Assembly (NCBI RefSeq): GCF_000633635.1
Contig: NZ_AYPQ01000001.1
Span: 902,820-966,819 of the forward strand
Direction: 5' to 3'
Source of the DNA: Enterococcus crotali
GTDB lineage: Bacteria > Bacillota > Bacilli > Lactobacillales > Enterococcaceae
Length of the DNA stretch: 64,000 nt
The translations under genes were made by a program, and so were the position numbers. The notes below the pieces were generated by a model, which saw nothing but the letters and a program-made list of their open reading frames with translations, was not told the origin of the DNA and did not search any database. Below are positions 50,266 to 51,970 of the stretch, in pieces. How positions within the stretch are numbered: the first letter of the stretch is position 1; the number at the start of each line of letters is the position of its first letter.

Positions 50266-50595
50266 ATGGAACAACATTTGGTAAAGATAACAACAACTTT
50301 CCATAATACATGGTTAGTCTCTCAAAAAAGCGATGCTTTTTCTGAGAAAAATGATATTCTATTTGGCGATACATTGCGGCTATCCATTTCTAAAAATGAT
50401 TCTTACTTTTTTTCAAAAGCGATCGCTTTAACCTATAATCAAGAAATTCTCTCTAGAGAAATACCGACTGATAGTGAGGTCGAGTTTTTTGATTACATGA
50501 AAATGGTTGAAGAGAAATCATTTTCAAAGAGCCTAGCGGCCAAATATGGTTTAGAAGCCTATATCATGCCTGTACCGTTGGAAGAGTCTAATTAA
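50266..50595 (+). CDS. Hypothetical 109-aa protein
   Basis: I do not recognise a family. GGAGGAG precedes the ATG, an extended -10 lies 40 bases upstream and a terminator follows, so this is a real monocistronic gene. The protein is soluble, with an N-terminal beta region (LVKITTTFHNTWLV) and an acidic C-terminal helix (EVEFFDYMKMVEEKSF). It neighbours the peptide/Rgg locus. Confidence 0.65.
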   Translation: MEQHLVKITTTFHNTWLVSQKSDAFSEKNDILFGDTLRLSISKNDSYFFSKAIALTYNQEILSREIPTDSEVEFFDYMKMVEEKSFSKSLAAKYGLEAYIMPVPLEESN

Positions 50596-50608
50596 AAGCA
50601 AATCAAAT

Positions 50609-50678
50609 AATAGCCTCTGATTTACTTCATTCAACAGGAAAAGTAAATCAGAAGCTACTATTTTGCACTTTTTTTGTT
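50609..50678 (+). terminator. Terminator of the 109-aa protein gene
   Basis: TAGCCTCTGATTTACTT (50611-50627) pairs with AAGTAAATCAGAAGCTA (50641-50657) with one mismatch, and T-rich sequence follows (CACTTTTTTT). Confidence 0.65.
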
Positions 50679-50775
50679 ACGCACTTTTTATTTATACATT
50701 TAGTTTTTTAGTTAAATTCTTTGTTTACAAAATTGTTTTCTAATCCAATTTAAATAAGAGATAGTTCAATACGTT

Positions 50776-50841
50776 TTAGACTCCTCCTGTAACTACAAAT
50801 ACAGAAATAGCACTAGCAACAACTGCTATTAATGAAATCAT
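50776..50841 (-). CDS. 21-aa short hydrophobic peptide (SHP-like)
   Basis: The ORF starts at ATG 50839-50841 behind a very strong GTGGAGGTG site and ends in TAA at 50776. The peptide is MISLIAVVASAISVFVVTGGV, uncharged and almost wholly hydrophobic, with a VVTGG-V end that recalls the IIVGG ends of streptococcal SHP pheromones. It is divergent from an Rgg-family regulator 215 bases away, the usual layout for rgg/shp pairs. It is below the size limit of gene callers. A tiny type I toxin is the alternative; lack of Lys/Arg is unusual for either. Confidence 0.55.
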   Translation of the reverse strand: MISLIAVVASAISVFVVTGGV

Positions 50842-51022
50842 AAACACACCTCCACTCATTTTTTTAAAAATCAACGTTTGCAAACAAATAATTTTCCTTA
50901 GGTAAAGAATAACAAACAGACGAAAAAAAATAAAGCCTTAAAATTCAAAAGTGCGAAATTAGCATAAAAATCCGAAAAAATATTTATTTTTTTATTAAAA
51001 ATAGGAATATATTGTTAAATTC

Positions 51023-51034
51023 ATGCTATAATCG
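51023..51034 (+). promoter_or_regulatory. Extended -10 promoter of the Rgg gene
   Basis: TGC-TATAAT just ahead of the AAGGGAG site; the region upstream is a run of A/T with no clear -35. Confidence 0.45.
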
Positions 51035-51055
51035 CATAAGAAGGGAGAGAAACGC

Positions 51056-51970
51056 TTGGATATCACAGAAACTTTACGTTTTTTTAGACATAAATTGAAG
51101 TTAACTCAAAGAGAAATGATGTCTGAATTTACAGATCCATCAACTTATTCAAAAATTGAAAGCGGCAAACGCTCTTTAAAAGTAAATGAACTAGAAGAAA
51201 TACTAAATCAAACATCCATTAGTGTTGAGGAATTCTTTAGTTTCACAACATTTGATAAGCAACAACAAGATTTCAGAGAAACATTCTATTATTGCGGTGC
51301 TCATTTAGAAAATAAAACCACGAAACAAAAGTTGCTAAATTATTATTATTCACTACAAAATAAAGAAAAAAAATCATTACGAGATTTATCAAATTATATT
51401 GGTATTAAAAATTTTTTCAATGCACATTGGGAAGAAGTTCATCCAGTGACTTTAGAGGAAGTAAATGATATTTTTGAAGATTTACTGAACAAATCTTTCT
51501 ATATTCAATATGATTATATTATCACAGCAAATTTGATTCGTTTTTTCAATGCAAAGCAATCTGATTTATTACTTGCAAGGATGTTCCCAATAAAATACGA
51601 AGAACAACGTGATTTCACTACTAAAAAATTTGCTCATAATATCTTGATCAATTTAATTTCAATGCGGTTATACGCAAAAGATTATAATAGCGCTGAAAAA
51701 TATATCAAGCTAGCAAAAAAACAAGATAAACAGAATGAAAATTACAGTTTTAAGTTGAACCTTCAATATTTAACAAATCTCTTAAATTATATTCTTGAAG
51801 GTGAACCTATTTATATGGAACGAGTATATGACTTTATACATCTATTGGAAAATACAGGTGACATTTTACAAGCTGAACAAGTAAAAAAAGAAGTGAAAAT
51901 GTTAACACATGAGCGAGATAGCGAAAAAATGCTAAATAACTATGCGGTCGGATTACTTAAAGAGTCCTAG
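51056..51970 (+). CDS. Rgg/PrgX-type transcriptional regulator
   Basis: The 304-residue protein has an N-terminal XRE HTH (residues 1-65: LRFFRHKLKLTQREMMSEF, then STYSKIESGKRSL) with the Rgg pattern L-x-x-x-R...KIE-GK...EEFF, and a long all-helical C-terminal domain of TPR type that in this family binds peptide pheromones. It starts with TTG at 51056, after AAGGGAGAG. The divergent 21-aa hydrophobic ORF is the obvious candidate ligand. Target genes are not evident; the small RNA downstream on the opposite strand could also be linked. Confidence 0.8.
   Translation: MDITETLRFFRHKLKLTQREMMSEFTDPSTYSKIESGKRSLKVNELEEILNQTSISVEEFFSFTTFDKQQQDFRETFYYCGAHLENKTTKQKLLNYYYSLQNKEKKSLRDLSNYIGIKNFFNAHWEEVHPVTLEEVNDIFEDLLNKSFYIQYDYIITANLIRFFNAKQSDLLLARMFPIKYEEQRDFTTKKFAHNILINLISMRLYAKDYNSAEKYIKLAKKQDKQNENYSFKLNLQYLTNLLNYILEGEPIYMERVYDFIHLLENTGDILQAEQVKKEVKMLTHERDSEKMLNNYAVGLLKES

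Follow-up and report, generated by a model that had tools for sequence, protein, structure and literature searches.

A chromosomal PrgX-like regulator and a divergent, uncharged 21-residue peptide in Enterococcus form a likely peptide-receptor switch

A conserved short peptide gene divergent from a 304-residue regulator

The window analysed here is a 64,000-nucleotide stretch of the Enterococcus crotali genome (G000:C1:902820-966819; 3.9 Mb in 20 contigs), to which all coordinates below refer. On the forward strand, positions 51056..51970 hold the gene of a PrgX-like regulator of 304 aa with a TTG start. Divergent from it, on the reverse strand at 50776..50841, lies an ORF of 21 codons encoding the hydrophobic, uncharged peptide MISLIAVVASAISVFVVTGGV; its ATG start follows, at a distance of 5 bases, a Shine-Dalgarno sequence, GGAGGTG (50847..50853, reverse strand), which reads GGAGG or GGGGG across the alignment of 17 orthologous loci. 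The starts of the two genes are 214 bases apart. The original prediction had described a 66-base hydrophobic ORF with a strong ribosome site, divergent from a 304-aa helix-turn-helix gene, and the sequence confirmed each of these elements. No longer ORF follows the peptide gene on its strand, and conjugation genes are absent downstream of it: the next gene is an ORF of 109 aa (50266-50595, forward strand), convergent with the peptide gene, separated from it by a strong hairpin and matching no Pfam or NCBIfam model.

The regulator was matched in all 22 genomes of the genus, in 17 of them (its own included) at 75-100% identity; relatives named by a scan of genome contigs include Enterococcus ureasiticus (91% identity), caccae, plantarum, termitis, moraviensis, quebecensis, ureilyticus and larvae. 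Synteny within the flanks was conserved, with the 109-aa neighbour present at 16 of the 17 loci and a YfhO-like neighbour at 15. When the search was widened to 105 genomes, the regulator was matched at 1e-15 in 32, comprising the 22 of the genus and 10 of the 83 outside it, two strongly (G022, G095) and eight weakly.

Conservation of the short ORF as a protein wherever the regulator is present had been named as the check that could overturn the pairing, and the ORF came through it: all 21 codons are in frame and intact at 17/17 orthologous loci among the 22 genus genomes, with no indel and no stop, and the distance to the regulator is constant within a few bases. None of the 357 residues in the 17 peptides is charged. 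Codon position 3 is more variable than positions 1 and 2 (permutation p = 1.5e-4, 17 loci), and the pooled pN/pS is 0.52 (uncorrected counts over all pairs of the 17 loci). Within this focal clade, conservation is higher in the C-terminal half of the peptide than in the rest (mean entropy 0.76 vs 1.16). One pick of the ORFs for the 17 loci had used a fixed length and a loose motif; another pick, based solely on a length of 14-26, hydropathy and a fragment of the ribosome site, had returned identical ORFs. Conservation, codon constraint and the result for control ORFs in the strict screen described below (0/49 passing) rule out a random ORF. The comparative evidence thus supports a conserved protein-coding gene tied to the 304-aa regulator.

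Operator-like dyads in the control region

The putative peptide promoter, an extended -10-like TGTTATTCT (50906..50914, reverse strand), is near-invariant in the 17 loci. Two operator-like dyads, both candidate binding sites, are present in 17/17 loci: dyad 1, ATGCTATAATCGCAT (51023..51037, forward strand), overlaps the -10-like TATAAT of the regulator (51027-51032, forward strand), and dyad 2, ATGCTAATTTCGCAC (50951..50965, reverse strand), reads ATGC[TC]AATTTCGCA[CT] across loci, with T as its first base in two of them. The spacing between the dyads is 72 bp in the 17 loci (71 in one). Between dyad 2 and the peptide gene there is a T-rich stretch and then TGTTATTCT, with no clear -35. PrgX itself uses two operators 91 bp apart and requires looping, according to the accessible part of PMC5552905.

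An unconstrained scan for matched dyads across 38 loci gave no clear excess. With the geometry fixed, the first site of a locus agreed with the inverted second site at 10.2 of 15 positions vs 8.8 of 15 for cross pairs in 27 family loci (p = 5e-5; none of 20,000 permutations was as good), a result to be read with the facts that the windows were selected after the free scan and that AT-rich composition may favour own pairs; 13 of the 27 loci stood out individually, with at most 2 of 26 cross pairs as good. These 27 were drawn from the 38 loci of the free scan by omitting close relatives (L011, L031, L034, L036, L037, L047) and loci with 84-139 bases between the genes (L002, L021, L058, L064, L070).

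The dyad pattern ATGCKAWWWTMGCAY, which misses dyad 2 where the fifth base is C, occurs at three places in the 3.9-Mb genome, two of them at the focal locus (backward control, one); three of the seven relatives searched show one further place each. We rejected a large regulon because the pattern is nearly absent elsewhere in the genome, and no target gene beyond the module was found. A third regulator site, AAAAAGTGCGTAAC downstream of the ORF, was likewise discarded: judged by eye, in a related group it does not match that group's dyads.

A leader palindrome and a conserved hairpin flank the peptide gene

The presumed 5' leader of the peptide gene contains a conserved palindrome, GTTTGCAAAC (50876..50885), which could pair as RNA with TTTGTTTACAAA (50720-50731), the two flanking the peptide ORF; the pairing partner is missing in one of the 17 loci (L011), and no compensatory both-sided changes were seen. 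The palindrome recurs in the leaders of some paralogs. The cre consensus contains CG, and a CcpA site at GTTTGCAAAC was rejected since this CG is not conserved in all loci (by eye).

Past the other end of the gene, a strongly conserved hairpin (50605..50664) has a stem-loop core that is identical, loop included, in 15/17 loci; the cores of L014 and L015 lack three loop bases and carry one more change, and the few variable positions of the outer stem keep their pairing. The hairpin could end both the peptide transcript and that of the convergent 109-aa gene. Conservation of the loop to the same degree as the stem exceeds the apparent need of a terminator. The only full copy in a genome is the one at its orthologous locus, in all 17 cases, while G008 and G012 yielded one weak partial match each; we accordingly dismissed a repeated element. 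A known RNA family was dismissed on Rfam matches that all fell under gathering scores.

These features raise another possibility: the working part could be the conserved RNA, made up of leader palindrome and hairpin, for example as a regulatory RNA, and the ORF its by-product. The hairpin core is identical in 15/17 loci while coding bases vary, and the peptide transcript carries no other gene, both of which fit such an RNA; yet the third-position excess and the lack of any stop, indel or charge in 17 loci indicate that the ORF is selected as a protein, and the hairpin may be merely a shared terminator. We regard this explanation as very improbable.

The regulator family matches PrgX more closely than Rgg

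Searched alone, the regulator matched Pfam HTH_3 at 25 bits (cut-off 23) and HTH_19 under the cut-off, the remainder of the protein, including its C-terminal part, having no model match; there was no NCBIfam match, and no PDB match at E 0.01. When a profile of 28 regulator sequences was used instead, the best match was PrgX, over positions 2-288 (E = 3.5e-25), and the next was 4yv6 (E = 1.4e-12), which the accessible text of PMC9765709 gives as Rgg2. As a single pair, the window regulator and PrgX share 21% identity over residues 3-217 (E = 4e-6). The 'Rgg features' of the original prediction hold for the family and not for the window protein alone: at E 0.01, Pfam Rgg_C matches 22/28 aligned members (window protein included), NCBIfam RGG_Cterm 16/28 and Pfam PrgX_C_TPR 1/28, whereas the window regulator matches neither Rgg_C nor RGG_Cterm. 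A 60-row tree separates PrgX, together with L084 and L087, from the large family and joins the focal clade to L026, L030 and L065 (support 95/96); being midpoint-rooted, it cannot choose between PrgX and Rgg as nearest kin.

The proposal of an Rgg/SHP-type pair stands in its divergent receptor-peptide layout, but the closest known system is PrgX/PrgQ, both by profile and by the Anti-Q-like RNA of paralogous loci described below, and a strict streptococcal-type Rgg/SHP assignment was rejected on the better fit of PrgX to the regulator profile. A classical Rgg/SHP pair, with a peptide exported by PptAB and cut by Eep, would share with this locus a regulator of helix-turn-helix and C-terminal repeat type, a short hydrophobic divergent peptide and a GG near the C-terminus (VVTGG, like the SHP ending); the Rgg_C matches of 22/28 family members also speak for it. 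Streptococcal SHPs have a basic N-terminal leader. The peptides here, the focal one among them, are without basic N-terminal residues, the profile match to Rgg is the weaker one, and paralogous loci carry Anti-Q-like RNA, all of which makes a classical pair quite improbable.

Related regulator-peptide pairs

Two further regulator relatives in the same genome (44-45% identity) have the divergent peptides MSILLLAVVVPFVIIVAP and MFFVTVISVITTFANLVGP; for a fourth relative, at 24% identity, no divergent peptide was accepted. Altogether we examined 93 loci, representing 95 of 105 matched stretches; of the ten omitted, two are G021:C3 matches duplicating examined loci and most others are short fragments. 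Peptides of 16-22 aa, 57 of them distinct, were accepted at 61/93 loci by a screen with a minimum of 12 aa, which excluded shorter ORFs. K or R occurs at 0 of the 1184 residues of the 61 accepted peptides, with the caveat that the 44 paralogous ones were picked by hydropathy and ribosome site, a selection biased against charge. No peptide was accepted at the other 32/93 loci (among them L023, L040, L041, L044, L048, L049, L051, L056, L059, L062, L071, L073, L077 and L082). L076 has a peptide candidate with a TTG start, and L025 one with charges. Phage and Melissococcus homologs of the regulator had no accepted peptide and no model match.

For a stricter screen we demanded a peptide of 16-23 aa without K, R, D, E or H, with hydropathy >1.2, an ATG or GTG start and a ribosome site, divergent from the regulator and 60-260 bases upstream of it. 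It was passed at 56/78 family loci and at 0/15 distant or fragmentary loci, by 0/49 other ORFs in the loci and by 1/53 window ORFs, the one being the focal ORF; control ORFs were mechanical ORFs of at least 120 aa, and extra start positions were tried for regulators only, the counts being the same without them. The group of 15 is not a clean negative set, since two of its entries are fragments of genes (L057, L078) and four are receptors near which other candidate peptides occur (L079, L080, L084, L087). Similarity between peptides follows similarity between regulators (r 0.68, Mantel test significant), a correlation explained by descent, as r is only 0.05 among distant pairs. On a 56-kb IMG/VR contig, a pair at L114 (3502-4909) has a peptide identical to that of E. 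caccae L027, and some paralogs may thus ride on prophage-like elements.

The uncharged character of the peptides bears on whether they leave the cell at all. Were the peptide never exported and instead bound by the regulator in the producing cell, the locus would not serve communication but would work as a switch, either bistable or for timing; the want of a basic leader in all 61 accepted peptides and the near confinement of the dyad pattern to the focal locus are compatible with such internal feedback. Against it, the peptides that RRNPPA receptors bind are described as re-imported ones (available portion of PMC10518010), and leaderless peptides of the RRNPPA family are thought to exit by an uncharacterised route (available portion of PMC12700828). 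We consider purely internal feedback unlikely.

An Anti-Q-like antisense RNA in paralogous loci

On the regulator's strand, 20-260 bases beyond the stop codon of the peptide gene, an extended -10 motif, TGNTATA[ACT]T, occurs in 29/44 paralogous loci with a peptide, compared with 2.3 expected over all 61 (first-order shuffles); the motif was first noticed in, and then counted over, identical sequences, and in two of the 29 loci (L065, L080) it lies >250 bases from the stop and may be there by chance. It is present in 0/17 loci of the focal clade, where other promoter types are possible, and present in the own-genome paralog L003. The antisense -10 TGTTATACT of paralogous loci is also found in pCF10, 140 bases past prgQ, where it would be the promoter of Anti-Q. 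According to the accessible part of PMC8265641, the prgX operon has a countertranscript, Anti-Q, that acts on IRS1, a terminator located downstream of prgQ.

The antisense RNA would extend from the -10 motif as far as a U-run immediately beyond the stop of the peptide gene. In one group of loci its fold comprises a 5' hairpin together with a three-way junction, in others it forms different hairpins, with both-sided changes at 12 of 38 pairs among eight sequences. A model, R1, built from these eight chromosomal sequences and excluding pCF10, scored pCF10 at 23.6 bits (E = 0.0086, E-values being rough) in a search of 53 sources (194 kb); since a wrong-strand match at the true locus L114 reached 22.6 bits, the pCF10 score taken by itself is marginal. 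Within 3 kb of pCF10, searched with filters off, that match was the best of 21 (next 15.3 bits), lay on the expected strand and started at TGTTATACT. Held-out chromosomal or plasmid loci scored 134.6 (L057), 52.4 (L084), 33.4 (L053) and 31.7 bits (L025). Across 22 genomes, with no more than 150 first-look candidates scored in each, R1 gave at least 12 matches at E 0.01, in seven genomes; eight are the building sequences, and all four others (G006:C1, G021:C2, G021:C3, G021:C5) lie within ~500 bases of a regulator match, three on its upstream side and one past its 3' end. R1 had no match in the window at E 1 and none in the own genome at E 0.01 among 150 of 354 first-look candidates. At the focal locus, the hairpin occupies the place that the Anti-Q-like RNA takes in paralogous loci.

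Several further observations concern these loci. R1 matches adjoin L079 (G021:C5) and L084 (G021:C2), PrgX-type regulators whose nearby peptide candidates, MKKHKNILGTVIICVLTMAPIFPNLLG and MNFNKKEKIKALLSLAVAFSLTLVA, have basic leaders. At L057 and L060 the regulator is in pieces; the antisense RNA region (in both) and the peptide (in L060) look intact. A second structure 3' of the peptide gene (L003, L043, L046, L031, L052 and relatives) has CTTCCCCAAG in antisense orientation inside a long stem; in a scan of 15 loci this type gave no Rfam match above the gathering score.

Type I toxin-antitoxin modules such as Fst and Ibs combine a small hydrophobic peptide with an antisense RNA. By this precedent the peptide would be a membrane-active toxin restrained by the antisense RNA, with the regulator as a further transcriptional brake, and the hydrophobic peptides of 16-22 aa with their strong ribosome site, together with an antisense promoter motif past the 3' end and pointing at the peptide gene in 29/44 paralogous loci, are what it would predict. 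The antisense RNA, however, is laid out like Anti-Q of pCF10, which serves a signalling peptide; the regulator profile aligns with a peptide receptor over its whole length; and the C-terminal half of the peptide is the more conserved within the clade, as for signals. The peptide also differs from such toxins in having no charged tail and a PrgX-like regulator attached, and in the focal clade, the focal locus included, the supposed antitoxin is not found by the extended -10 motif, which is absent from all 17 loci, although a promoter of another type is possible there. We think a toxin distinctly unlikely.

Discussion

We consider that the locus is most likely a chromosomal peptide-receptor switch of the PrgX/PrgQ type, probably serving peptide signalling. 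The 304-aa protein would be a receptor inside the cell that also regulates transcription; its N-terminal domain would bind DNA and, by relation to PrgX, its C-terminal domain would bind peptide. It may occupy both dyads, of which dyad 1 sits on the regulator's own -10 and dyad 2 lies 36 bases upstream of the extended -10 of the peptide gene. Probably bound to the two sites as a looped tetramer, it would set the expression of both genes. The signal would be the whole peptide or a C-terminal fragment of 7-10 residues (about SVFVVTGGV), which, once made, would exit the cell, be re-imported and shift the regulator between two DNA-bound states. Peptide binding, export, trimming, operator function and looping are steps that we infer; a membrane protease gene of the Eep/RseP family is present in the genome.

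Several features recall PrgX, PrgQ and Anti-Q of the E. faecalis plasmid pCF10: a regulator similar end to end in the profile search; a divergent short hydrophobic peptide, 208 bases away there and 214 at the focal locus; two operator-like sites, 91 bp apart there and 72 here; and, in paralogous loci, the identical antisense -10 and a similar folded antisense RNA. Unlike the plasmid module, the focal pair is chromosomal, in a conserved neighbourhood with no adjoining conjugation gene, its regulator is only 21% identical to PrgX, and its clade is without the antisense promoter motif. PrgQ has four K/R in 23 residues, whereas the focal peptide is without a basic leader; with 0/1184 K/R in accepted peptides, the basic leader of PrgQ and the SHPs is missing throughout. 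We do not assign the locus to the PrgX/PrgQ plasmid system itself, because a basic leader, a recognisable local antisense RNA and downstream conjugation genes are all wanting.

The pairs also resemble RopB with its leaderless peptides (LCP) in having no export leader, a strong ribosome site and a divergent arrangement. They differ in peptide length, the accepted peptides here being 16-22 aa, whereas the available text of PMC10518010 describes RopB-type receptors with leaderless peptides of mostly 8-10 aa, E. malodoratus included (9 aa).

Tentatively, and with rather more doubt than conviction, we extend the proposal beyond the focal locus: in this Enterococcus genus, the pheromone-plasmid control module (PrgX, PrgQ, Anti-Q) may exist as a chromosomal gene family. 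A genome would hold several mutually distinct copies, every one equipped with operators and a peptide of its own, and an antisense RNA would accompany most of them; the peptides, of 16-22 uncharged residues without an export leader, may form a new class of signal. If this were true, a single strain would operate several peptide channels, each of them private and none linked to conjugation.

The accessible part of a published survey reports PrgX as plasmid-only (PMC9765709). The RRNPP_detector survey, in the portion of its text available, dropped clusters whose propeptides do not fit its reference profile, which combines basic residues at the N-terminus with a long hydrophobic middle (PMC10075063), a filter that would remove uncharged peptides of the focal type. 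We found no account of these chromosomal pairs in the accessible parts of the open PMC literature, where an unnamed cluster in RRNPP-survey supplementary tables may hold them.

Should the proposed function of these pairs be borne out, enterococci would have a richer chromosomal peptide signalling than described, the pheromone-plasmid switch would have relatives on the chromosome, and it would become possible to test, across many natural variants, how uncharged peptides without a leader are exported.
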